This document shows, piece by piece, positions 8,735-28,490 of a DNA stretch of 64,000 bases. The DNA is taken from the NCBI GenBank assembly GCA_027296055.1, contig JAPUJT010000185.1, positions 1-64,000 of the forward strand, in the 5' to 3' direction. A model generated the notes under the pieces. It saw nothing but the letters and a program-made list of their open reading frames with translations, was not told where the DNA came from and did no database searches. Source of the DNA: Planctomycetota bacterium. GTDB taxonomy: Bacteria > Planctomycetota > JAPUJT01. Within the stretch, counting starts at the first letter, position 1; each line of letters opens with the position of its first letter. Position numbers and translations under genes: made by a program.

Positions 8735-10599
8735 CTGCCCGCCTCCAGTTTCAGGTCCAGGGAGGCCTCCCCCACATGCGGGGCCCATGCCCGGATCGCC
8801 ACGGTTTCGGGGACGCTCTCGCCGAACCGGACCAGCCAGGTTTGCTCCGTCTTTCCTCCGTTACCGTCCAGGGCGCCGACCGATCGGCGCGCCGGAGCGG
8901 TCAGGAGTTCCGCTCCTTCGGGGAGCTGCAGTTCTATCTGGAGTCGCTGCAGCTGCCGGCTGGTAGAGCCCATGTTCGATTCGGTCCGGAGAAACCCGCT
9001 ATTGATGAGTCGTACCCGGATACGGAGCAGGCCGTCTCCCAGGTCATCCACCCGATCCCGGATCAGTTCCAGCCGCGGCAGCCTTTCCGCAATCAGCTTG
9101 AGCATGTCCACGTTGGGATCGATCAGCTTCTCAGCGAGCTCGACCGGCGGATTCAGGCGACAACGCGGATAAAATCCGCCGACTTCCACTTCCTTTCCGG
9201 GGAAGTCCGGGTGCTCGATCTTCTCCCACTCGACAAACCCCGGGTAGTGATTCTCGTCGAGCCATTTTAGGGCCCTCAGCTCCTCCGCTCCCCGCTTGTC
9301 CTCCTTATCCTTTCCCTTCTTCTCGTCCACCTTCGCAGGCTTCTCTTCGTCCGATTCCCCTTCGTCCTTGCTTTCGGGGGCCTCTTCGTCTTGATTTTCG
9401 TCATCCTCCTGCTCGGTCTCTCGGTCACCTGGCTTCTCGGCCTCGTCTTCGGTCTTCCCGTCCTCGGTTCCGGGCGTCTCCTCGTCCTTGGTCTCCTCGT
9501 CTTTCTCCTTCTCCTTCTTCGTTTTGGGCACCCACCACCCCCGCGTCCCCAGCGCCCAGCGTCCGTAGTGGAAGTACGCCCACTCGAGGAACGAGCCTGC
9601 GGGCTTTCCGGGCTTCGGGGCGTCCTTCATCTCGTGCAGATCTTGGTAGGCTTTCGCGAGGTGCTCGACGTACGGTGCGTCCTTGCTCAGCAAGGTGGTC
9701 TTGTTCCGCTTTTTCTCGGACCCGGAATTCGGTTTCCACATGTGCTCCAGATTCCCATCCGGCGTGAAGCAGAACACGGCAGCGATGTTGAGGTGATCGA
9801 AAGCGAAATCCATGACGGCCCGCGTTTCCGGCTCGGACACGGCGTGCGACCCGGCCCCGGATTTGAACGACGGATACTTGAAGGTCATGTTCCGATTGAA
9901 ATCGACGCCGCCGACGGGATCCTCATTCCATCGCTCATCCCCGTCGTTGTCCCTCCCCTCGGTGTAAAGCAGGTACATGCCCTGCTCGTTCTTCACCCGG
10001 TCGGCCTTGATCAAGATACGCGGGTCCTTCGGGTGTGGGAGCCACTCGCCGGAGGAATCTTTCACCCGCATCATCGTCATCATGCCGTCGCCGTTCAGAT
10101 CCTCCGGTCCGTCCTCGTCAATCCGATCGTCGCGATCGTCGTCATGAGGGCGGGAGTTCATGGCCACTTCCCGATCCGGATTACCGAAGCTCCTCTCGGT
10201 CGCATCCGGGGACGGTCTGGGAATGAAGTAGAACGTCGTGCGCTCGAGAAGGGCTGCGGCTTCCTCATCTGCCACGAGCTTCTTCGCCATCTCGACCGTG
10301 AGGTACGAGCCGAGAAGATGGGCTGCGTGAACGCTCCCGAGGACGAGAATGGCGGGTTTGGCGTCTGCTTCCCCGGAAGCGATGGTCGCCACGAGGATGT
10401 CCCGGCCGTTCGCGGTCTTCCCCAGCGAACGGACGGTGCAGAGTTCGTGCTGCCCAAGTTTCTCCAGCTCATCGAAGAAGGAGGTGTAATTCCGATAGAT
10501 CCTGATCTCAGGAGTCGTCTGGGCTCGACCGACTCCGAACGGGATCTGGAAGAGAACAAGGATTAGCGTAAGTCGAGCGAACGGCCGCCAGGGATGCAT
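8731..10599 (-). CDS. Secreted M14-like protein lacking zinc ligands (probable pseudopeptidase)
   Basis: 622 residues with a signal peptide ending near GRAQ. It aligns through its length with the neighbouring M14 enzyme, but the metal site is broken. HANE is HAAH (H91, H94), the third ligand in SYHNSGG is replaced by CFTPDG near 276-281, and the catalytic Glu region TNELW becomes GTRGWW. DxDxDG-type loops are kept. An extreme Glu/Asp/Lys-rich insertion spans about residues 360-440. It is the first gene of the operon and coupled by ATGA to the intact enzyme. A regulatory, binding or scaffold role is more likely than catalysis. Confidence 0.85.
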   Translation of the reverse strand: MHPWRPFARLTLILVLFQIPFGVGRAQTTPEIRIYRNYTSFFDELEKLGQHELCTVRSLGKTANGRDILVATIASGEADAKPAILVLGSVHAAHLLGSYLTVEMAKKLVADEEAAALLERTTFYFIPRPSPDATERSFGNPDREVAMNSRPHDDDRDDRIDEDGPEDLNGDGMMTMMRVKDSSGEWLPHPKDPRILIKADRVKNEQGMYLLYTEGRDNDGDERWNEDPVGGVDFNRNMTFKYPSFKSGAGSHAVSEPETRAVMDFAFDHLNIAAVFCFTPDGNLEHMWKPNSGSEKKRNKTTLLSKDAPYVEHLAKAYQDLHEMKDAPKPGKPAGSFLEWAYFHYGRWALGTRGWWVPKTKKEKEKDEETKDEETPGTEDGKTEDEAEKPGDRETEQEDDENQDEEAPESKDEGESDEEKPAKVDEKKGKDKEDKRGAEELRALKWLDENHYPGFVEWEKIEHPDFPGKEVEVGGFYPRCRLNPPVELAEKLIDPNVDMLKLIAERLPRLELIRDRVDDLGDGLLRIRVRLINSGFLRTESNMGSTSRQLQRLQIELQLPEGAELLTAPARRSVGALDGNGGKTEQTWLVRFGESVPETVAIRAWAPHVGEASLDLKLEAGR

Positions 10600-13677: not shown

Positions 13678-16600
13678 CTAACCTCCGAATTCTTCAGGCT
13701 TTCTTCTATGAGTCCTCTCCACACGCCGTGCAAATGCCATGAGATCGGCCGGCACCTCGTGAGCGTCGATTGCTTGCTCTTCCTCGACCTCGCGCTCGTA
13801 GACCTTGCGGCCGAACTTTAAGAAGAGGGCGGGGGTCACTAGCTGATCCAGAAGGGTACTGGAGATCAGCCCCCCGATCACCACGATCGCGAGGGGATGC
13901 AGGATTTCCTTGCCCGTATCGCCGGCGCCCAGAGCGAGAGGGACGAGGCCTAGCGTCGTCGTGACCGCTGTCATCATGACCGGCGCCAGCCGCTCCAGGG
14001 TGCCGCGCACGATCATCTGCTCATCGAACTTCTCGCCCTCGTACTTCATTAGATGGATGTAATGAGAGAGCATCATGATGCCGTTACGCATCACGATGCC
14101 GGTGAGTGTCAGAAAGCCGATGAGGGATGCGACCGAGAGGGTTCGATCGCCGAAGAGATAGACCCCCGCGACCCCCCCGACGAAAGCCAGGGGAAGGTTC
14201 ACCATGCACTGGAGTGCTGGCCGCCAGGAGCCAAGCGCCTTCATGAGGAGGGCAAAGACGACCAGCATGGCGAAAATGCTGAGGATGTAAATTCGCCGCA
14301 TCGCCGCCTGCTGCGCTTCGAACTGACCCCCGTACTGGACGAAATAGCCCTGTGTCAGCTCGAGCTTCGGCTCCAGCGCGCGGATGTCCTCGATCACGCT
14401 TGCCAGATCTCGCCCCTGCACGTTGCACTGGACCACGATCCGACGCATCACGTTCTCACGGTTGATCGTGTTCGGGCCGGCCGTCCGCTCCACCTCCGCG
14501 AACGTGGAGAGGGGGAGATGAGCCCCCGAGGGCGTCTCGATGAGCGTCCGGCCGATCACCGTGGGGTCGTTGCGGGAGGCCTCGTCAAACCAGACCACCA
14601 TCTCGAAGATCCGCTGACCCTCCAGCACTTCGGAGACGATCCGGCCCTGGAGCGCCGTCTCCAATGTCTCCGCCACCTCTCTCTTCGTGAGCCCGTAGCG
14701 CTGGATCTCATCGTGTTTCAGCCGGATCTTTACCTGAGGGATGTCGACCTGGGCCTCAACCAGCAGGTCCACCACACCGTCGATCTTGCGCATGAAGTCG
14801 TACATCTGCTGGGCCTTCGTGCGCAAGATCAGGAGATCCGGGCCGAAGATCTTTACCGCGATCTGCGCCCGGATGCCCGACAGCAGGTGGTCGATGCGGT
14901 GCGAGATCGGCTGGCCTACGTTCAAGTCCACTCCGGACATGTAGGCGAGTCGGTCGCGGATGTCCTTCATGATCTCATCACGCGAGCGATCGCTCTCTTC
15001 GAGGCGCACGTCGATCTCGGAGTAATTCACGTTTTCCGCGTGCTCGTCCAGTTCGGCGCGGCCGGTCCGCCGCGCCGTGGACTCGACCTCCGGTACCTCG
15101 CGAATCAGGTTCTCGGCGATCGTGCCCAGACGGTTGGACTCTTTCAGCGACGTCCCAGGAGCGGCGACGACGTTGACCGTGAAGGTCCCCTCGTTGAAGG
15201 GAGGGAGGAACTCTCCGCCCGTATTGAGATAGGCAGCCAGGGCCACCGCCACGAGAGTCGCGGCGCCGGCCATGACCTTGTAGGGGTGTCGGAGAGCCCA
15301 GCGGACGACTCTCCTGTCCACACGTTTCATGATCGCGAGGAGGAACGAATCTTTCGTGTGCGAGGTGATCTTGGCGCGTGGGAGGAGGTACGAGGCCAGG
15401 ACTGGCGTGACCGTGACCGAAACCAGAAGAGAGGCGAAGAGAGCGACGATATAGGAGACCGCCACGGGCGCGAACATCCTCCCCTCGATTCCGCCGAGGT
15501 TCAGCAACGGCACCACGACCACGGCGACTATGAGGGTTGCGTAGACGATCGAATTCCGAATCTCGGAGGAGGCCTGGAAGACGACCGCCAGGTAGGGCGC
15601 CGGATTCGACTTGGCGCGGTTCTCCCTCAGGCGGCGGAAGATATTCTCCACATCTACGATGGAGTCATCGACCAGCTCGCCGATCGCCACCGCAAGTCCC
15701 CCCAGGGTCATCGTGTTGATGCTCATCTCGAACCAGTCGAAGACGAACACCGTCGTGATCATCGAAAGAGGGATGGCCGTCAGGTTTATCAAGGAAGTGC
15801 GGAAGTTCCACAGGAAGAGGAAGAGGACAATGACGACCAGGATCGCGCCGTCACGGAGGGCCTCGACTACATTGGCCATTGCAGCGTTGATGAACTCTTC
15901 TTGGCGGAAGATCTTGTTGTGGATCTTCACGTCCGGGGGGAGGGATTCCTTGATCCTTTCCAGCGCCGCATCCACCTTCTCGGTCAGCGCAATCGTGTCC
16001 GCTCCGGGCTGCTTCTGGATCGCTATGATGATGGCCGGCTCGCTGTTCACGCTCCCGTCTCCGCGCTGTACGGCCTTGCCGAAGCGCACTTCCGCCACAT
16101 GCTTGACCAGGACGGAGGAGGGATCGGCCGGCTTCACGACCGCATTCTCGATCTCCTCGAGCGAGCCCACGCGTCCCAGGATCCGGATGAGGTACTCCTT
16201 GCGGTCCTCGAGGATAAATCCTCCACCCGTATTGAGGTTCGATGCCTCTACCGCGTGAGTCAGCTCTCCCAGGGTTACGTCGTACTGGCGGAGACGGCGG
16301 GGGTTGGTGATGACCTGGTACTGCTTCTCGCCACCGCCCATCACGGTTACCTGGGAGATGCCGCTGATCGCAAGCAGCTGCGGCCGGATCGCCCACTCGG
16401 CATGCGTGCGGATGTCCAGCGGGGAGGTCGTACCGTCCTCGCTCGTCAGCCCCACCAGAATGATCTCGCCCATGATGGAAGAGATCGGTGTCATCACCGG
16501 CTCCGTGCCCTCGGGTAGGCGTTCGCGGGCAATCAGGAGCCGCTCCGCGACGATCTGCCGATCCGTGAAGATATTGGTGCCCCAGTCGAACTCCACCCAG

Positions 16601-16878
16601 ACGATCGAGAGGCCGATGCCGCTCGCCGAACGGACGCGCTGCACGTCCGTCGCCCCGTTCATCATCGACTCGATGGGGAAGGTAACGAGTACCTCGACCT
16701 CTTCCGGGGCCAGTCCGGTCGCCTCGGTCATGATGGTGACGGTGGGGCGATTGAGGTCGGGCAGGACGTCGACCTTCATCTGGGTGACGAGATAACCGCC
16801 GTAGAGGATTGTGATGAGCGCGAGCGCCACGATCATCAGGCGGTTCTTCAACGAGAAGGCGATGACCTTGTTGAGCAT
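13678..16878 (-). CDS. Heavy-metal RND efflux pump (CzcA/CusA family)
   Basis: 1066 residues, the normal length for an HME-RND inner-membrane transporter. TM1 is near residues 12-32. The family motif GGLAVAIGELVDD spans 393-405, with the proton-relay acids D404/D405 and E411 in DVEN. The C-terminal half shows the expected TM8-TM12 pattern. It sits six bases downstream of its adaptor gene and uses proton motive force to move metal ions from periplasm or cytoplasm through the TolC partner. Cation specificity (Cu/Ag versus Zn/Co/Cd/Hg) cannot be set from sequence alone. Confidence 0.96.
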   Translation of the reverse strand: MLNKVIAFSLKNRLMIVALALITILYGGYLVTQMKVDVLPDLNRPTVTIMTEATGLAPEEVEVLVTFPIESMMNGATDVQRVRSASGIGLSIVWVEFDWGTNIFTDRQIVAERLLIARERLPEGTEPVMTPISSIMGEIILVGLTSEDGTTSPLDIRTHAEWAIRPQLLAISGISQVTVMGGGEKQYQVITNPRRLRQYDVTLGELTHAVEASNLNTGGGFILEDRKEYLIRILGRVGSLEEIENAVVKPADPSSVLVKHVAEVRFGKAVQRGDGSVNSEPAIIIAIQKQPGADTIALTEKVDAALERIKESLPPDVKIHNKIFRQEEFINAAMANVVEALRDGAILVVIVLFLFLWNFRTSLINLTAIPLSMITTVFVFDWFEMSINTMTLGGLAVAIGELVDDSIVDVENIFRRLRENRAKSNPAPYLAVVFQASSEIRNSIVYATLIVAVVVVPLLNLGGIEGRMFAPVAVSYIVALFASLLVSVTVTPVLASYLLPRAKITSHTKDSFLLAIMKRVDRRVVRWALRHPYKVMAGAATLVAVALAAYLNTGGEFLPPFNEGTFTVNVVAAPGTSLKESNRLGTIAENLIREVPEVESTARRTGRAELDEHAENVNYSEIDVRLEESDRSRDEIMKDIRDRLAYMSGVDLNVGQPISHRIDHLLSGIRAQIAVKIFGPDLLILRTKAQQMYDFMRKIDGVVDLLVEAQVDIPQVKIRLKHDEIQRYGLTKREVAETLETALQGRIVSEVLEGQRIFEMVVWFDEASRNDPTVIGRTLIETPSGAHLPLSTFAEVERTAGPNTINRENVMRRIVVQCNVQGRDLASVIEDIRALEPKLELTQGYFVQYGGQFEAQQAAMRRIYILSIFAMLVVFALLMKALGSWRPALQCMVNLPLAFVGGVAGVYLFGDRTLSVASLIGFLTLTGIVMRNGIMMLSHYIHLMKYEGEKFDEQMIVRGTLERLAPVMMTAVTTTLGLVPLALGAGDTGKEILHPLAIVVIGGLISSTLLDQLVTPALFLKFGRKVYEREVEEEQAIDAHEVPADLMAFARRVERTHRRKPEEFGG

Positions 16879-16884
16879 GGTCTG

Positions 16885-19047
16885 CTACCTCACGGCCGAG
16901 AATGCGTTATTGATCTCATTCACCCCGGAGACAACCACCAGGTCTCCCGGGAAAACGGCTCTTACCACCTCCGCGTGGTGTGCGTCTCTGCGGCCAAGTT
17001 CCACTTCGACGCGCTTGAATTCTTTCCCCTGTCGGACGAAGACATAGCGCTTGTGGCCGACGCGAAGGACCGCGCGGAGCGGCACGGCGATCACCTTTTC
17101 CCCCGCTCGCTTCACCGTCACCGAGAGCTTCGCGTGCATCCCCGGGAGTAGCGCGCGGTCCCGGTTGTCGACCTCGACCCAACCTTGAAGGACTCGCTCT
17201 TCCTCGCCCAGCGCTCGATTGACGAATCCGATCTTCGACTCCCACTCTCGCGACCGATAGGCCACTGTCCGGAAGACGACCGGTTTCTCCAGGGGGCCCT
17301 CGAAGAGTCCTGCGAGATCTGACTCGAAGAACGCCCCCTCGACCCATACTCTCCTGGTGTCAACCACCTCAAAGAGGGCCTCGCCCTTCTCCACGACCTG
17401 GCCCACCACCACCTTGATATCGGTTACGCGACCTTCCAGCGGCGCACGGACCGTTACCCCGGGAAGTGTTTCCTCTTGCTCCACGACGCCTGTGATCTCC
17501 TGCCTCGAAAGACCCATCACGAGGAGCGTTCGGCGCATGGTCTCGAACTGGCTCTGCAGGTCGAGCGCCTCGCTCTCGAGGCGCAGGAGTTCTTTCCGAG
17601 GTGGGATTCCCTTTCTCGCAAGTGCCCTCACTAACTCCAGTTGCTTCTCGACGAGGCTGCGTTCGAGGTGGACCTGAATCAGATCGAGTTGCGTGCTGTG
17701 GAGCTCCAGGCTCTGTACCTTCGCGAGAGCTTGGCCAGGCTCCGCCTCTTCTCCCAGCATCGTCAGAATCTCCAGGACCTTTCCTTGAATCCGCGTCGTC
17801 GCTACGCCTCGACCGTCTGGCGGTGAGACCACACGGGCATTCACCTCCACTACATGAGCCACCTCTCGGAATTCGATTTCCTCAACCTCAAAACCGATGC
17901 CTCTTTTCGCCTCTTCGCTCAACTTCAGCGTTCCCTGGACGAACAGGGAAGACAGCTCGTGGTTTCCCGATGTCACCACCGTATCCCCCGGATAGAGACC
18001 GTCGACGACTTCCACCAGCCTCCCATCCGTCAATCCGAGAACCACACTCGTCTTCTTGTAGGCCCCCTCCTTCTGCTGCACGAATGCATATCGCTCCGCA
18101 CCGTCGGTGACGATGGCCCCCTTCGGAGCAGAGAAGACATCTTCGACTCTCTGCAGCACCACCTCAGCCTGGCCGAACATGCCGGGAAGCAAGATTTCGT
18201 CGGGGTTCTCAAGCCGCGCCCAGGCCCGGCGCACGTTTTCCTCCGCATCCATGGAGGACTCGAGATAATCGATCTTTCCCGCAAAGGCCCTTTCCGGATA
18301 GGCACGTGGTAGGAAGTCCAGTTCCTGTCCAAGTTCCACATCGCCCACGAGATTCTCGGGCACCTCGCATTCCACCCACACTTCCGTCAGATCCTGGACC
18401 TCGAAGAGGTGTTTCGTAGGCTCTACGTGGCGACCGAGCTCAACGTCGACATGCACTACCGTGCCGTCTATGGGTGCGAGGACCGTAAGATCCTCCTCCC
18501 CTTTGACCCCTATCTCCTTAAGCTTCTTGCGAACCGTGGCGAGAGCGTTCCTCCGGTTGTCGCGGGCCGCTTGCAGTGCCAGGATCTCCTTGCCCGCCAT
18601 GATCTTCTCTCCGAGATCAAGGGCACGACGAAGGTTTTCCTTCGCAAGCGAGAGTTCGATCTCCGCCTGCTTTCGTTCCAAGCGGAGCGCCTCCAGGGGA
18701 AGGCTTTCGATCACGGCGAGTGGTTCCCCTGCTCTGACCCTCTGGCCGGGCCGCACCAGGATGTCTAGCACCACTCCTTCCAGGCGCGTGCTCGCAAACG
18801 CCTTCCGGTTCCAAGGAAGCATCACACGAGCGTTGAGCGGCACGGTGTCCTCGATGGTTCCGAAGTCCACCTTCTGGAGCGCAAGACCTATCGCCGTCCG
18901 CGCCGCCGCCTCGAGGTGCAGGATCCCTTTGTCATCAATCTTCACGCCTTTGGTGGTGATCGCCTTATGCCCTTCGTGGGCCCAGACGAGCGTCATGGTC
19001 ACGACGAAAAGGAGCCCTATTCCTGCCAACAGCGGCTTGTACTTCAT
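16885..19047 (-). CDS. Double-length RND periplasmic adaptor (tandem CusB/CzcB-like)
   Basis: 720 residues, nearly twice the usual adaptor length. A signal peptide ends near VWAHEGH. Residues about 30-375 form a complete adaptor with barrel-sandwich hybrid halves (VLDILVRPGQRVRAGEPLA and VLAPIDGTVVHVDVELG) around a coiled-coil hairpin, then beta-barrel and membrane-proximal parts. Residues about 376-720 repeat the whole layout (KVLEILTMLGEEAEPGQALA, VRAPLEGRVTDIKVVVG, and another SGVNEI end). The two halves have diverged. The gene lies between tolC-like and cusA-like genes and is the only adaptor in the operon, so one polypeptide may supply two subunits of the adaptor ring. Confidence 0.92.
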   Translation of the reverse strand: MKYKPLLAGIGLLFVVTMTLVWAHEGHKAITTKGVKIDDKGILHLEAAARTAIGLALQKVDFGTIEDTVPLNARVMLPWNRKAFASTRLEGVVLDILVRPGQRVRAGEPLAVIESLPLEALRLERKQAEIELSLAKENLRRALDLGEKIMAGKEILALQAARDNRRNALATVRKKLKEIGVKGEEDLTVLAPIDGTVVHVDVELGRHVEPTKHLFEVQDLTEVWVECEVPENLVGDVELGQELDFLPRAYPERAFAGKIDYLESSMDAEENVRRAWARLENPDEILLPGMFGQAEVVLQRVEDVFSAPKGAIVTDGAERYAFVQQKEGAYKKTSVVLGLTDGRLVEVVDGLYPGDTVVTSGNHELSSLFVQGTLKLSEEAKRGIGFEVEEIEFREVAHVVEVNARVVSPPDGRGVATTRIQGKVLEILTMLGEEAEPGQALAKVQSLELHSTQLDLIQVHLERSLVEKQLELVRALARKGIPPRKELLRLESEALDLQSQFETMRRTLLVMGLSRQEITGVVEQEETLPGVTVRAPLEGRVTDIKVVVGQVVEKGEALFEVVDTRRVWVEGAFFESDLAGLFEGPLEKPVVFRTVAYRSREWESKIGFVNRALGEEERVLQGWVEVDNRDRALLPGMHAKLSVTVKRAGEKVIAVPLRAVLRVGHKRYVFVRQGKEFKRVEVELGRRDAHHAEVVRAVFPGDLVVVSGVNEINNAFSAVR

Positions 19048-19050
19048 GGA

Positions 19051-20385
19051 TCAGTTTCCTTCCGGTATTTCTCCACCCAACAGGGATTGAAACTCGACCC
19101 GAGCGGAGTTGTGCTCCAGGAGAGCCTCCTGGTATCCGATCGAGATTCGAATGAAGTCTTCCTGCGCGCGTAACACCTCCAGCGTCCCCACCTCGCCCGC
19201 CCGATACGCGGTTTCGAACTGCTCCAGGTTTTCCTGTGAAAGCCTGTTCAGATCCTTCTCGAATAGATCTACGCTCTCGCGGGCAAGCGCGAGCCGGTTG
19301 AGAGCCACGTCGACATCGCGCTCGATCTGACGCTTGATTCCGGACAGCTCCGCCTCGAGAATCCTTGTCTCGGCACGCGCCTCTGCGATCTGCCCTCTCC
19401 TCTGGTTCCAGATCGGAATCGGGAGGCTCAACTCGAAGCCCAGGACATGGTCGCGATCGGAAAACCCGTTGACAGAAAGTGCCTCACGCTCGTAGAAAAG
19501 GCCCACCGCAGGGTTGGGCCACACCCGGGCCTCCTCCAGGCTTATCTGCGCATCCATCATTTGCACTCGCGCCTCGAGCGCAGAAATATCCGGACGCCTC
19601 TCTTTGGCTATGCGGAGTGCCGTCTCACGCGCCACTTCCTGCTTGGCAGCCCGGAGAGTTCCCACCAGCCTCAGGTCACTTCGGCTTGGTTCCCCAAGGA
19701 GAGCAGCCAATCGAAATCGGACCTCTCGTCTTCGGGCGGCGATGCGGGCGCTCTCATTCTTGGACCTCTCGTACTGGATCTTCACGAGATTCAGCTCGAC
19801 CTCGGGAATCTGTTTCAGTTCGAACCGCGCCTCGGCCGTCTCGTTCAACCGCGACGCGATCTCGACACTACGCGCGGCCAGGGAGACGAGCTCGTCCAGC
19901 ATAAGGCTTTCGTAGAACGTGGCAGCCACTTCCTCTCGTAGGAGCCTCTCGGCGTCCGCGATCGCAGCCTGGGTACGCCTGACGTTGGCCTCCGCGACCT
20001 GGATGCGACGGCCTCGCTGCCCACCGATCTCGAACTCCTGCGAGACGCCCACGCCGGCTCCATAGTCCTCGGCCCTTCCCAGGGGCAGCGCTCCCCTCGC
20101 CCCGGCGCTGACCACGGGATTGAACGACCACTGGTCCGCTGTCTGCCGCCTGGCCCTGGCGAATCTCAATTCACGCCGGACGGCGATCAAGCGGGGGTTC
20201 TGGACCATTGCGAGATTGAACGCTTCGTCCAGAGTGAGGCCATCCGCCATGTTCACCGGCGGCCCGATAGGAACTTGCTCCTCCTTCGTTCGCTCTACCG
20301 CAGGAGCGGCGGAGTCCTCCGTGTGGCGGCTCACCGTACAACCTCCAACCAGAAGCAATCCGCATAGCACAACGAGACTCTTCAC
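19051..20385 (-). CDS. TolC-family outer membrane efflux lipoprotein
   Basis: 444 residues with lipobox LLVGGC. The body shows the TolC/CzcC duplication: two long amphipathic helical regions with LTLDEAFNLAMVQNPRL near the start and a second unit beginning in the RRPDISALEARVQMMDA region, closing with QEALLEHNSARVEFQSLLG. The start is GTG at 20383-20385, preceded by GAAGAGGA. An in-frame ATG six codons earlier lies on that Shine-Dalgarno sequence. Stop and next start are three bases apart, so it is tightly linked to the adaptor gene. It forms the outer-membrane channel of the metal pump. Confidence 0.92.
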   Translation of the reverse strand: MKSLVVLCGLLLVGGCTVSRHTEDSAAPAVERTKEEQVPIGPPVNMADGLTLDEAFNLAMVQNPRLIAVRRELRFARARRQTADQWSFNPVVSAGARGALPLGRAEDYGAGVGVSQEFEIGGQRGRRIQVAEANVRRTQAAIADAERLLREEVAATFYESLMLDELVSLAARSVEIASRLNETAEARFELKQIPEVELNLVKIQYERSKNESARIAARRREVRFRLAALLGEPSRSDLRLVGTLRAAKQEVARETALRIAKERRPDISALEARVQMMDAQISLEEARVWPNPAVGLFYEREALSVNGFSDRDHVLGFELSLPIPIWNQRRGQIAEARAETRILEAELSGIKRQIERDVDVALNRLALARESVDLFEKDLNRLSQENLEQFETAYRAGEVGTLEVLRAQEDFIRISIGYQEALLEHNSARVEFQSLLGGEIPEGN

Positions 20386-20490
20386 ACTGTCCTCTTCTTT
20401 CATTCGTGGGACGTCTTGAAATCGTGGATCACGCCGCGCACAAGCACGACCGGTTCCCCGGCCGCGGAGCGGTTCATTCTGGGTAGGTGG

Positions 20491-25402: not shown

Positions 25403-25786
25403 CTATAGCCCTGGCCTGACACAACACGCCTCGTGGTCCATCACGCCCTCGTGCGGTATCGTCCCTTCCAGGCGCTGAATGTAATAGTCAGGCTTCTTCT
25501 CGAACACCTCAGGGCAATAGGGACAGCGGCAGAAGTGCATCTCATGCCCTGCTATGGTCAGCTTGACGGCATGATCTGCCGACTTTTCAGCGAGGCAGGT
25601 CGGGCAGACGATCATGTCGCTCGTTTCCGCGAGGTGCTTCTCGGGATCATTGACGAAGAGATCCACGCACGCCTGGCAACAGAAGTGATGTTCTCTCCCG
25701 TTGTGGCTGTGAGCAACCGCCATCTCACTGCTGACTCCCAGCCTTACGAGAGAGCAGCCGCATGTAGGACAGATATGTGTTTTCAT
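25403..25786 (-). CDS. Cys/His-rich protein with two YHS/TRASH-like metal-binding modules
   Basis: 127 residues with two similar modules. The first is CPTCGC, then HHFCCQACVDLFVNDPEKHL. The second is CPTCLAEK, then HEMHFCRCPYCPEVFEKKPDYY. Both resemble YHS/TRASH-type metal-binding treble-clef motifs (CxxC, then HFCC-x-C, then F-x-P-x-Y/H). A third Cys pair (EACC) is near the C-terminus. There is no signal peptide, so it is cytoplasmic. GGAGATGGAGA precedes the ATG. It is the last gene of the selenoprotein metal operon, 82 bp below the Sec glutaredoxin. Likely role: metal sensing, buffering or handover. All its Cys are encoded by TGC/TGT. Confidence 0.72.
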   Translation of the reverse strand: MKTHICPTCGCSLVRLGVSSEMAVAHSHNGREHHFCCQACVDLFVNDPEKHLAETSDMIVCPTCLAEKSADHAVKLTIAGHEMHFCRCPYCPEVFEKKPDYYIQRLEGTIPHEGVMDHEACCVRPGL

Positions 25787-25868: not shown

Positions 25869-26102
25869 CTACAGACCGAGGAGTTCGTCCAGACGATCCT
25901 TCTTGAACCCCACGACTGCCTCGCCATCGATGACGATCACAGGCGTGGACATGATATTCATGTCCTCCAGCTCTTTGAGGAACGCTTCATTCTTGGTGAT
26001 GTCCCGATCCTCGAACTCCACCCCCTTCTCCGCAAGATACTCTTGCGTCTTGTTGCAGAACATTCACCCAGGCTGAGAATAGACAATTACTTTCTTGGCC
26101 AT
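25869..26102 (-). CDS. Selenocysteine-containing glutaredoxin-like protein (UxxC)
   Basis: A 77-residue glutaredoxin/NrdH-like protein if TGA at 26066-26064 is read as Sec. The N-terminus reads MAKKVIVYSQPG-U13-MF-C16-NKTQEYLAEKG. The usual active site is CxxC, so the first Cys is replaced by Sec. The cis-Pro motif STPVIVIDGE and GFKKDRLDELL follow, all typical of the fold. Support for starting before the TGA: AAAGGAGG (26117-26110) lies seven bases before the ATG. The ATG just after the TGA would lose beta1 and the first redox residue. A SECIS-like hairpin starts 16 nt after the TGA. Likely a cytoplasmic thiol/selenol reductase serving the adjacent metal-binding selenoprotein. Confidence 0.88.
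26031..26047 (-). promoter_or_regulatory. Predicted SECIS hairpin of the glutaredoxin gene
   Basis: On the mRNA: stem CGCAAG / CUUGCG (6 bp, perfect) with loop AGUAU. There are 22 nt between the UGA and the loop. A G among the first two loop bases and this distance match the known bacterial SECIS pattern (hairpin inside the coding region just after UGA, apical loop about 16-37 nt away). Confidence 0.7.
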
Positions 26103-26218: not shown

Positions 26219-27421
26219 TCACTTGAGAGCCCCCCGCAGTAATTCGATCGTCTCGTCCGCGCTCTTGAATCCGAGCATGCGCCCCAGTTCGGTACCGTCG
26301 GGAGCCAGGAATCGGGCGTCCGGAATTCCCGAGACCTTGAAGTGCTTCGATATGTCCGGATGGACGTCGGTGTTCACCTTCAGAAAGATGAATCTCTCGA
26401 GCTCGGCGATCACGCGAGCGTCCTTGTAGGTCTCGTCGATCATTCGTTTGCAGGGAGCGCACCAATCGGCATGGAATTCCACCAGCAGGAGCTTCCCCTC
26501 CTTGCCCGCCTGATCCAAAGCCTTCTGTACGAGCTGCGGCATCGGGGATGGTGCTTTATCGCCAGCCCCTTTCTCGGGAACGGAGGACCTCGGATCCTCG
26601 GATAGAACCACGGTAGCTCCGAAGCCCCGGTCCTTGATTGCCTCGATCATCTCTGCCTCGGTCGGGCGATCCGCAGCGGCCTGCACCCTGAACAGGTCCC
26701 TCTCCAGATCCATCTCGACCGCCGCCACGCCTGGAAGCCCTTCCAGGGCCTCCTTCACCCCGAGGGGTCAGGCCATTCACGTCGCGCCGCTCTTGCTCTT
26801 CAGCATGCCCGTGACATGAAGAGCGACACGGCGCTCTGGCTTCTCCAGGATCTCGAACACCGAGATCGACATCTCGAGATTCTCGCCCGGGTCGGAGGGG
26901 GTGCGGCCGCGGATCCGCATCCAGGTCTTGCCATCTTTGATCTTCGTCATGACCTCCGCGTAGTTGCGGCCAGTCTCGTCCTTGTCGCCGGGGATCAGGA
27001 GAACGTCCTGGCCGGTGCTCTCGATGTGGAGTTTGGCCGACTTCTCCGGGCCCGGGCTATTCAATGGCGAGATGGCACCCGTCACCTCCAGCTCTATCCA
27101 CTCGGCTTTGAACCCGGCTTCCTTCACCGCCTGGAGCAGGTCCGGGAGGTCCAACCTCTTACCCTCCCGGAGCGTGATGAGGCCGACACCTTCGTTGATA
27201 TCAAATGCAAATTGCTGAACGCCAGACTGGCGTTCGAGGGCCCTCTTCAGGCCCCCCGCTCACATCGGTCAGGTTATCCCGCCGACCGCGAGGTGGACGA
27301 TGAGGTCGCGCCCTTCCGCCACTGCGGGTGCGCTCCCAGCCACCTCGCCGGTGGGCGGTCTGCTCTGCGGAACGGCGCAACCAAGAAAGATCACCGAGAG
27401 TGCGAGAGCGATTCTTTGCAT
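26219..27421 (-). CDS. Selenoprotein lipoprotein: HMA(UxxU) - middle domain - HMA(UxxU) - thioredoxin, four Sec codons
   Basis: One 400-residue protein when four in-frame TGA codons are read as Sec: 27271-27269 (U51), 27262-27260 (U54), 26779-26777 (U215) and 26770-26768 (U218). The signal peptide MQRIALALSVIFLGC15 is a clear lipoprotein signal, with GAGGAGG five bases before the ATG. HMA1 (about 39-107) reads GGIT-U-PM-U-AGGLKRAL. A middle beta domain (about 110-205) resembles an OB-fold. HMA2 (about 205-272) reads AT-U-MA-U-PLGVKEALEGLPGV, where MerP-type domains have TCxxCPxxVKxAL. The thioredoxin domain (about 285-400) keeps ordinary W-C321-A-P-C324. All parts share one frame. The stop is TGA at 26221-26219, where the thioredoxin fold ends. 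Likely a membrane-anchored, extracytoplasmic soft-metal trap with built-in reductase. It lies 32 bp after an outer-membrane protein gene. Confidence 0.88.
26733..26753 (-). promoter_or_regulatory. Predicted SECIS hairpin for Sec215/Sec218
   Basis: On the mRNA a 9-bp stem (GGAGGCCCU with AGGGCUUCC, one G-U pair) closes the loop GGA. The loop is 23 nt after the second UGA and 32 nt after the first, within the known bacterial range, and begins with GG. Confidence 0.68.
27217..27235 (-). promoter_or_regulatory. Predicted SECIS hairpin for Sec51/Sec54
   Basis: On the mRNA a perfect 7-bp stem GAACGCC / GGCGUUC closes the loop AGUCU, 31 nt after the second UGA and 40 nt after the first. The loop is nearly the same as AGUAU in the glutaredoxin hairpin. 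A second, GC-rich hairpin (27236-27256, loop UGAAGAG) lies 19 nt after the first UGA and may serve it. Confidence 0.65.
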
Positions 27422-27453
27422 CACTTCCTCCTCATACTCGAGTAGCTTCGCAT

Positions 27454-28452
27454 CTAGAATAACAACCTGGCGCCTACTGTGCCGCTTACGTCCTCCGAGA
27501 GTTGCAGGCCGTGGAGGTGTCGGAATACGGGAATCTGGATTCCCGCTTCAAATAGCAGGTTCTCCGTGACGATCGTCTGCACCCCAGGCGAGAGCCGGAT
27601 GATCAGACCACCCGATGCGTCCACGGGATCTCCGTTCACCTTGTCCCTCTCCGCGTATCGGCCGTTCAGCTCCAGGATGAGGTTCAGCGTGAACTGATCG
27701 TATCTCTCATACCGGATAGGATAGGCCCGGAACTGCATCCCGGCGTCGAACCGGATGACATTGCCGAATCGATAGTCGTTCGCCTCGGAGTTGGCCTTGT
27801 AGATGAGGTCGGTGTTCACGAGCCATCGTCCTCCATCCCAGAGCCGCGTACCGGCGAGGCCGAGAATCGCGTCCACGCCCCCGGACCCTGGCTGGAGTGG
27901 GGCGGGGAGGCGCATCCCATCGTCCCTCACATCATCCCGTCCCGTCGGGAGCTCGAGCCCAAAAATGGCGGCTAGCTCGGTCGTTCCTCCGAGCTCCGGT
28001 TTCTTGAAGAGGCGCCACTTCCCTGAAAGGGTCGCATCCCCCACCCCGTCCGAGTTGAGCGTGACGCGGCTCCCCCCGATGCCCGTCTTCAGGGACTTCA
28101 CGAGGTACGGAACGGTCAGGCCCACCGTGGCATCCTCCGTCGCCCCGTAGACGACGCGGACAGTCGTTCGATAGACCTTCAGATCCTGGTCGTCGGGATC
28201 GCTCTTGTGGACGTTCCCTTCGTAGGTGTTCGTGGCCCGGGTGTAGGTGAACCGGGGGATCACCCCCTGCCCGGTGAAGTTCCTCGTGCGGGCGGACTGG
28301 GTGAAGATCGTGTCGTCGTACTCGAGCCCGATAGCCAGCGACTCGGCCTCGTCCAAGGAAACACCCGGGCCTCGCGGCGAGGCGCTCGCGCAGGCAGAGG
28401 CAAAGACGATCAGCGAAAGCAGCCTGGATGACGAGACAGCCCATGTGGCCAT
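27454..28452 (-). CDS. Outer-membrane beta-barrel protein of the MetA-phenol-degradation/transporter type
   Basis: 332 residues. The signal peptide ends in SACASASP and may be lipoprotein-type. The body alternates amphipathic beta strands with turns. The segment DGVGDATLSGKWRLF followed by FGLELPTGRDD matches the PF13557-type outer-membrane transporter family, and the chain ends in aromatic LLF as barrels do. ATG at 28450-28452 with GGGAG eight bases upstream. It is the first gene of the operon with the Sec metal lipoprotein. It may provide an outer-membrane route or platform for the metal-handling proteins. The substrate is unknown. Confidence 0.72.
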   Translation of the reverse strand: MATWAVSSSRLLSLIVFASACASASPRGPGVSLDEAESLAIGLEYDDTIFTQSARTRNFTGQGVIPRFTYTRATNTYEGNVHKSDPDDQDLKVYRTTVRVVYGATEDATVGLTVPYLVKSLKTGIGGSRVTLNSDGVGDATLSGKWRLFKKPELGGTTELAAIFGLELPTGRDDVRDDGMRLPAPLQPGSGGVDAILGLAGTRLWDGGRWLVNTDLIYKANSEANDYRFGNVIRFDAGMQFRAYPIRYERYDQFTLNLILELNGRYAERDKVNGDPVDASGGLIIRLSPGVQTIVTENLLFEAGIQIPVFRHLHGLQLSEDVSGTVGARLLF

Positions 28453-28477
28453 AACGAATCTCCCTTCCACGCCCAGT

Positions 28478-28490
28478 CTACACACTGTAG
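28478..28490. promoter_or_regulatory. Inverted repeat upstream of the selenoprotein operon, possible operator
   Basis: CTACA-CAC-TGTAG, a 5-bp perfect dyad 26-38 bp before the first ATG of the operon. The half-sites resemble TACA/TGTA operators bound by BlaI/CopY-type repressors, though those usually have a two-base spacer. No regulator gene is in the window. Confidence 0.35.

Follow-up and report, generated by a model that had tools for sequence, protein, structure and literature searches.

Described relatives of the window protein

MerP is a single-domain protein with a CxxC motif and is not known to have a lipobox or a thioredoxin. Mercury-type proteins containing selenocysteine (Sec, U) have been described: the Global Ocean Sampling selenoproteome includes two sequences of a MerP with Sec and two of a putative mercuric transport protein (PMC2398784). 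HMA selenoproteins with a UxxU motif form a named family, NF041115 (UxxU_metal_bind (seleno)protein), which a 2026 table of 119 selenoprotein families lists as ‘Metal-binding protein (putative mercuric reductase)’ with UxxU and 2 Sec (PMC13188914); a UxxU putative mercuric reductase is also shown in PMC9312934. The same table includes a MerT selenoprotein, Sec thioredoxins and Sec glutaredoxins, and its maximum is 3 Sec per family (PMC13188914).

The window, by which we mean the whole 64,000-nucleotide stretch of Planctomycetota DNA that was analysed, encodes a protein that resembles several of these systems and differs from each. It shares the HMA fold with UxxU with NF041115, but that family is a 74-position single-domain model with one Sec pair and no thioredoxin; the window protein scores 69.6 bits against it and its C-terminal half 41.1, both under the cut-off of 95, and 16 of 20 scanned members of the window protein's family match the model at 1e-5. 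MerP (TIGR02052; solved structure 1afi) is comparable as an exported HMA protein and is encoded beside MerT, as are some relatives of the window gene though not that gene itself; the window protein reaches 49.9 bits against this model, under its cut-off of 92.55. The thioredoxin is of the same kind as the C-terminal domain of DsbD (2fwe, E 9e-21, and 1uc7; DsbD family PRK00293). The membrane reductase domain of DsbD is, however, absent from the window chain, and the window family has Sec in place of the first thioredoxin Cys in 16 of 34 loci.

Two further families bear a partial likeness. NF045683 (MerT/CopZ fusion-like heavy metal transport selenoprotein) also places Sec in a mercury-transport-like protein and its HMA part matches, whereas its membrane MerT part is absent from the window protein and scores lie far below the cut-off of 375 wherever shown. 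Selenoprotein glutaredoxins (Uxx-star, YruB) resemble the gene downstream (25869-26102), which scores below the family cut-offs. The Global Ocean Sampling proteins are mercury-type HMA or MerT proteins with Sec and to that extent resemble the window protein; the passage on them gives no motif and does not mention a thioredoxin (PMC2398784). Altogether, 25 NCBIfam families match the window protein, none of them with a best stretch running across HMA and thioredoxin.

The author of an earlier note on this DNA knew of no described chain with two UxxU HMA domains and a thioredoxin. The HMA-thioredoxin fusion and a four-Sec chain are absent from the 119-family table (PMC13188914), and among the titles and abstract openings listed by literature searches none concerned such a protein, while unannotated database entries could still exist; the UxxU HMA selenoproteins themselves, in contrast, were already named as NF041115.

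One frame with two pairs of in-frame TGA codons

The gene occupies a minus-strand frame that encodes 400 residues with TGA read through. It opens with ATG 27421, ends with TGA (26221-26219) as codon 401, contains 0 TAA and 0 TAG, and is interrupted by TGA at codons 51, 54, 215 and 218. Its features are as follows.

27424..27432, minus strand: Shine-Dalgarno-like AGGAGGAAG, its end 2 nt 5' of ATG 27421 (inspection)
26219..27421, minus strand: predicted four-Sec lipoprotein ORF, HMA-beta-HMA-thioredoxin fusion (frame translation and Pfam)
27377..27379, minus strand: lipobox Cys15 codon, FLGC (inspection; family lipobox column)
27098..27304, minus strand: first HMA domain, about residues 40-108, UPMU (Pfam, family alignment/profile)
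27269..27271, minus strand: TGA codon of predicted Sec51
27260..27262, minus strand: TGA codon of predicted Sec54
26837..27097, minus strand: middle domain, residues 109-195, kept in the separate N-half genes of G018, G036 and G051
26618..26824, minus strand: second HMA domain, about residues 200-268, UMAU (Pfam, family alignment)
26777..26779, minus strand: TGA codon of predicted Sec215
26768..26770, minus strand: TGA codon of predicted Sec218
26228..26536, minus strand: thioredoxin domain, about residues 296-398, W-C321-A-P-C324 (Pfam; nearest solved structure, the DsbD C-terminal domain)

Both TGA pairs occupy the C-x-x-C positions of an HMA domain, UPMU in the first and UMAU in the second. 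If four TGAs are placed at random in 400 codons, they form two pairs, each with a spacing of three, at a frequency of 7.5e-5, and the chance that a random 400-codon frame of the same composition has no TAA or TAG is about 4e-4. Because of these odds, and because TGA is kept in homologues, the pairs represent more than chance.

When TGA was read as a residue, Pfam detected two HMA stretches (PF00403, 58.8 bits, gathering cut-off 24.8) and a thioredoxin (PF00085, 48.7 bits, gathering cut-off 23.5). The single frame with its start, stop and four paired TGAs, and the union of two UxxU HMA domains with a WCAPC thioredoxin in one chain, all claimed in the earlier note, were thus recovered, each domain above its cut-off. 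The middle domain has no Pfam match and is predicted, at low confidence, to be mostly beta; when the N-half profile was compared with solved structures, convincing matches were confined to the HMA part. An AlphaFold2 model of the window protein alone had a pLDDT of 45. The lipoprotein signal, likewise proposed earlier, is visible on inspection as an FLGC lipobox at Cys15, and Cys fills 22 of 25 rows of the family lipobox column, in which the window's own row is a slice without its N-terminus. We predict that the gene product is exported and lipid-anchored.

Selenocysteine machinery and codon exchange

The host genome (G000; 5.26 Mb, 206 contigs, with the window on contig C96) was searched for the selenocysteine genes selA, selB, selC and selD, as the earlier note had suggested, and all components were present: tRNA-Sec at 65.9 bits (cut-off 47; also called by ARAGORN, anticodon UCA), selA at 569.4 bits, selB at 338.5 bits and selD at 368.4 bits, the last carrying one TGA itself. 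Elsewhere in the phylum, 27 of 30 carriers of an HMA-thioredoxin gene had a tRNA-Sec scoring above the cut-off, versus 18 of 27 non-carriers, in a search whose control set also gives matches in 5 of 14. The three carriers lacking a match are 77-84% complete genomes, and the sole match in one further carrier (G130) is weak at 49.5 bits.

Searching the phylum with the window protein gave matches in 84 of 199 genomes, and a 20-member profile in 56 of 392, many of them in both searches via the thioredoxin alone. PF07596 was present in 6 of 13 genomes, which by itself does not place them in Planctomycetota. Codons were counted at 34 HMA-thioredoxin loci from 30 genomes (25 aligned and nine added); the motif pattern caught 32 of these, and G366 and G304 were read separately. 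HMA position 1 is TGA at all 34 loci, and position 2 is TGA at 33 and TGC at one (G149). The first thioredoxin Cys codon is TGA in 16/34 and TGC or TGT in 18/34, while the second active-site residue is Cys at 33 loci and Ser at one. Among six genes that contain the N-terminal half of the window protein (first HMA and middle domain; N-half genes), five have UxxU and one CxxU. Cys codons, for which the earlier note had proposed to look, are therefore found at HMA position 2, thioredoxin position 1 and N-half position 1. Of the listed matches that extend over the HMA part (best nine or seven candidates per genome), none was an all-Cys HMA-thioredoxin protein.

The paralogue in the same genome, on contig C47, is 65% identical to the window protein over residues 194-398. 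One scan of contigs outside the phylum returned five loci, matching residues 231-399 at most, and in 12 plasmid records every match fell inside residues 261-400.

Several variant motifs were observed alongside the family. A second type of HMA-thioredoxin selenoprotein, the UxxxU group (GMTUxxGUG; L098, L099, L100, L105), has a motif one residue wider than CxxC. In one family (L071, L075 and L145, from G160, G187 and G304) a further in-frame TGA lies in the thioredoxin cis-proline loop, IPDTU, where the nearest relatives have Arg. A short UxxC HMA protein (GFLUMGC at L076, ~9952; GFLUMQC at L081, ~7939) is encoded directly upstream of the HMA-thioredoxin gene, and at L064 (~8715, minus strand) another UxxU HMA-like motif, GATUGAUTTGLEKAL, lies downstream in the HMA-thioredoxin frame, beyond a TGA at which that frame may terminate.

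SECIS-like hairpins downstream of the TGA pairs

A compact hairpin follows each TGA pair of the window gene.

27217..27235, minus strand: SECIS-like hairpin after the first pair, 8 bp, 3-nt loop, intact in 5/5 aligned N-half genes
26733..26753, minus strand: SECIS-like hairpin behind the second TGA pair, stem of 8 bp with a 5-nt loop, covariation across 25 aligned sequences

The second hairpin overlaps the codons for a conserved A-L-E-G-L (alignment A2, columns 30-37 with 43-50), and its loop lies 22 nt after TGA 218. Over the 25 sequences, 85.5% of cells are paired, compared with 22-59% when the helix is slid; 15 cells are compensatory, and the covariation score was reached by 0 of 500 shuffles. 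The number of further pair types, a weak measure, was reached by 38 of 500. RNAalifold placed a similar helix of seven pairs after the second pair. Six relatives without A-L-E-G-L (G175, three in G244, G222 and G233) carry a shifted hairpin, GGACGC/GCGUCC or near it. For the first hairpin, the alignment comprised five of the six N-half genes, that of G043 being left out; it shows two compensatory pairs, and 18 of 500 shuffles score as high.

At the thioredoxin site, a stem retains a mean of 4.88/7 pairs in TGA relatives versus 2.72/7 in Cys relatives (p 2.5e-5, relatedness ignored), a comparison that favours the TGA rows since the stem was modelled on a single relative with TGA at this site; the corresponding difference in folding energy was not significant (p = 0.08). 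In the window, folding energy after U51 and after U215/U218 beats the 5% quantile obtained from 120 randomly drawn codons; after U54 and after the Sec of the glutaredoxin-like gene it does not. Of the two kinds of test, base-pair covariation gave the stronger result and folding energy a weak one. SECIS-like hairpins, a check proposed in the earlier note, do follow the TGA pairs with covariation, and their function in Sec decoding is a prediction.

Taken together, the Sec machinery, the exchange of Sec and Cys at three different positions and the covarying hairpins indicate that the four TGAs of the window gene are very likely decoded as selenocysteine, as the earlier note had assumed. That TGA is an ordinary stop, or that the frame is a pseudogene, an assembly error or recoded with TGA as Trp or Gly, is extremely improbable: although the assembly is fragmented (206 contigs) with 5.56% contamination, the genome holds the Sec machinery, the same columns are TGA in 34 loci from 30 genomes, and the exchanged sites carry Cys. 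Recoding as Trp or Gly was rejected on the basis of the many TGA-terminated genes in the window, the TGG codon in WCAPC and the tRNA-Sec. Pseudogene formation or sequencing error was rejected on the retention of TGA at family columns.

Split and fused forms of the chain

The window protein corresponds to a fusion of two genes that relatives keep separate. Its N-terminal part, comprising the first HMA and the middle domain, is a gene of its own in G051 and G036 (UxxU) and in G018 (CxxU); related separate UxxU genes occur in G043, where the sequence has diverged past the HMA part, and in G127, where it ends early. The N-half gene adjoins the HMA-thioredoxin gene in G043, and in G051 the same two genes lie about 10 kb apart. 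All six N-half loci, including the window, are preceded by an exported protein of the family encoded at 27454-28485.

Given that the N-half is fused to HMA-thioredoxin in the window alone among the 25 HMA-thioredoxin loci compared, and that stand-alone N-half genes exist in G018, G036, G043, G051 and G127, the four-Sec chain could be peculiar to the window, joining two lipoproteins that elsewhere stay separate, with only the single-UxxU forms of biological importance. We consider this unlikely, though it is compatible with the explanation that we favour below: no stop separates the two halves, both sides align well, and four-TGA chains occur elsewhere. In G051, one frame with four TGAs encodes HMA(UxxU)-thioredoxin-HMA(UxxxU). 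In G157 (L077), a PDZ/thioredoxin-like part with two adjacent TGAs runs into HMA(UxxU)-thioredoxin with no stop between, and the chains of G160, G187 and G304 combine UxxU, UxxC and one more TGA. By virtue of these fusions and motifs, four TGAs per chain are also found outside the window; two UxxU HMA domains in one chain were seen only in the window among the chains examined. In G233 (L144, ~4289 on the reverse strand and upstream), a single frame encodes CopZ-MerT-HMA-HMA(UxxU)-thioredoxin.

Other rearrangements were noted in the same survey. The UxxxU HMA of the G051 protein forms its C-terminal part (L068, ~9301-9505), in the same frame as HMA(UxxU)-thioredoxin. A neighbouring PDZ/thioredoxin-like gene with adjacent TGAs (ET-UU-) occurs in four genomes: L074 (3320, 4869), L077 (9235, minus strand), L078 (9426) and L082 (3335). 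At two loci (G036, L104; G319, L134), MerT-HMA-HMA is followed by a thioredoxin remnant from which the UxxU region has been lost, in frame in G319.

Gene neighbourhoods and the probable cargo

The window gene is part of a minus-strand run of four genes (27454-28485, 26219-27421, 25869-26102 and 25403-25786), of which the other three are:

27454..28485, minus strand: upstream co-directional exported protein, no Pfam or NCBIfam match; family also before the N-half genes of G018, G036, G043, G051 and G127
25869..26102, minus strand: downstream Sec glutaredoxin-like gene, G-U-MFC, predicted Sec13 (in-frame TGA and family models)
25403..25786, minus strand: cysteine-rich YHS-domain protein

Elsewhere in the window, an RND metal-efflux-type cluster lies at 13681-20403 on the minus strand, comprising an AcrB-family pump, a CusB-type adaptor (two such stretches per chain) and an outer membrane efflux protein. 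No mer gene was detected when the whole window was searched by tblastn with MerR, CopZ-MerT-HMA and MerB queries at 1e-4.

The paralogue on C47 stands in a different setting, a cluster of MerR, CopZ-MerT-HMA, HMA-thioredoxin and MerB. Its MerB scores 194 bits (cut-off 193) and its MerR-family gene 133 bits (mercury-MerR cut-off 150.85); MerB exceeds the cut-off in 1 of 32 genomes. The best MerA candidate of the host genome reaches 402 bits, below the cut-off of 454. We surveyed neighbours at 28 loci, 25 of them HMA-thioredoxin. A MerR-family gene lies within 2.3 kb of 9/25 (in G018 on the other strand); MerR-family matches at such a level need not be mercury regulators. The three regulators that were scored (G000 C47, G043 and G036) fit the mercury MerR model best, yet fall below its cut-off. 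CopZ/MerT matches occur near seven of the 25 loci; in G051 and G130 the match is confined to the CopZ-like part, and neither of these two genomes yielded a MerT. Either MerR or CopZ/MerT is near 11 loci and neither near 14, including the window, some of these on short contigs. MerT itself (PF02411) occurs at 15 places in 12 of 32 genomes, namely 30 carriers and two with remnants, all chosen for the family and none a non-carrier. At 11 of the 15, an intact HMA-thioredoxin gene (nine) or a UxxU-less remnant (two) follows MerT at a distance of about 0.3-1.1 kb. Nine of the 34 intact HMA-thioredoxin loci adjoin merT, the C47 paralogue included; the window gene does not.

As some relatives lie beside mercury-transport genes or are fused to them, the window protein probably grips mercury via selenium rather than sulphur. 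The neighbouring MerR, CopZ/MerT or MerB genes (at the paralogue and 10 others of the 25 loci), together with the CopZ-MerT-HMA fusion in one relative, favour mercury over copper or cadmium. The earlier note had envisaged a trap for soft metals in general (Hg, Cu, Cd); neighbours and fusion support such a role indirectly and point to mercury.

An alternative is that the window protein serves a Cus-like efflux system as its chaperone for copper or silver. The CopZ model outscores MerP on it (71.5 versus 49.9 bits), the AcrB-family pump, CusB-type adaptor and outer membrane efflux genes at 13681-20403 share its window, and an RND gene lies near the G051 copy and a heavy-metal P-type ATPase beside that of G043. 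We judge this improbable in view of the recurrence of MerT as immediate neighbour, the MerB flanking the C47 paralogue and the preference of the three scored regulators for the mercury MerR model, albeit below its cut-off.

Somewhat less improbable, though still on the unlikely side, is a redox relay, in which the HMA folds would carry electrons by cycling between diselenide and diselenol, with the thioredoxin as their source, for example so that selenols reduce peroxides or disulphides in the envelope, and the mer neighbourhood would be secondary. Several observations point that way: the kinship of the thioredoxin to DsbD, closest of all; its UxxC site in 16 of the 34 loci, a set chosen to have both domains; the Sec glutaredoxin-like gene that directly follows in the window, G187 and G304 and lies 5 kb away in G001; the G157 fusion, whose PDZ/thioredoxin-like part has a pair of adjacent TGAs; and the 14 of 25 loci without MerR or CopZ/MerT nearby. 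Against these stand the HMA domain being a metal-binding fold, the adjacency of 11/15 MerT places, the CopZ-MerT-HMA fusion in G233 and the MerB beside the C47 paralogue.

A proposed selenol-based mercury carrier

Among these readings, a mercury-carrier function is the best supported, and we hold it with moderate confidence. In its specific form, the window protein is probably a selenol counterpart of MerP, a mercury carrier with an attached reductase; judging from sequence and gene context, its cargo is most likely Hg(II) or an organomercury compound, and the role of the reductase is likewise a prediction. The affinity of selenolates for Hg(II) exceeds that of thiolates. The hairpins just downstream would help Sec decoding of the four TGAs, and where MerP-type domains bind Hg(II) with a dithiol, each HMA domain would then present a vicinal diselenol (U-x-x-U). 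The DsbD-like thioredoxin may keep these diselenols reduced or exchange with them. In the relatives and the C47 paralogue, the captured metal could be handed over to one of three kinds of partner: a CopZ-MerT-HMA membrane protein, an efflux pump or a P-type ATPase.

More tentatively, and as a possibility that we rate somewhat below even, the family may amount to a phylum-wide selenium-based mercury system, in which diselenol HMA lipoproteins with a built-in, often selenol, thioredoxin replace MerP and are sometimes fused to MerT. The window form would be a scavenger of very high affinity for Hg(II) or methylmercury, feeding MerT and MerB.

If the four TGAs are decoded as predicted, the window chain holds four selenolates in two UxxU sites, more Sec than any of the 119 prokaryotic selenoprotein families in the published table (PMC13188914). 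The closely spaced UGA pairs with their compact hairpins should be useful for studies of Sec decoding. The extreme affinity of selenium for mercury is usually discussed as the mechanism by which selenoenzymes are poisoned. Here, evolution appears to use Sec as the metal ligand itself, in pairs, and to have placed a redox partner on the same polypeptide. The natural Sec and mixed Sec/Cys forms, together with Cys forms that can be made, render the question of why Sec rather than Cys is used for metals directly testable, and, in bacteria that have received little study, the family would connect the detoxification of mercury with the translation of Sec.
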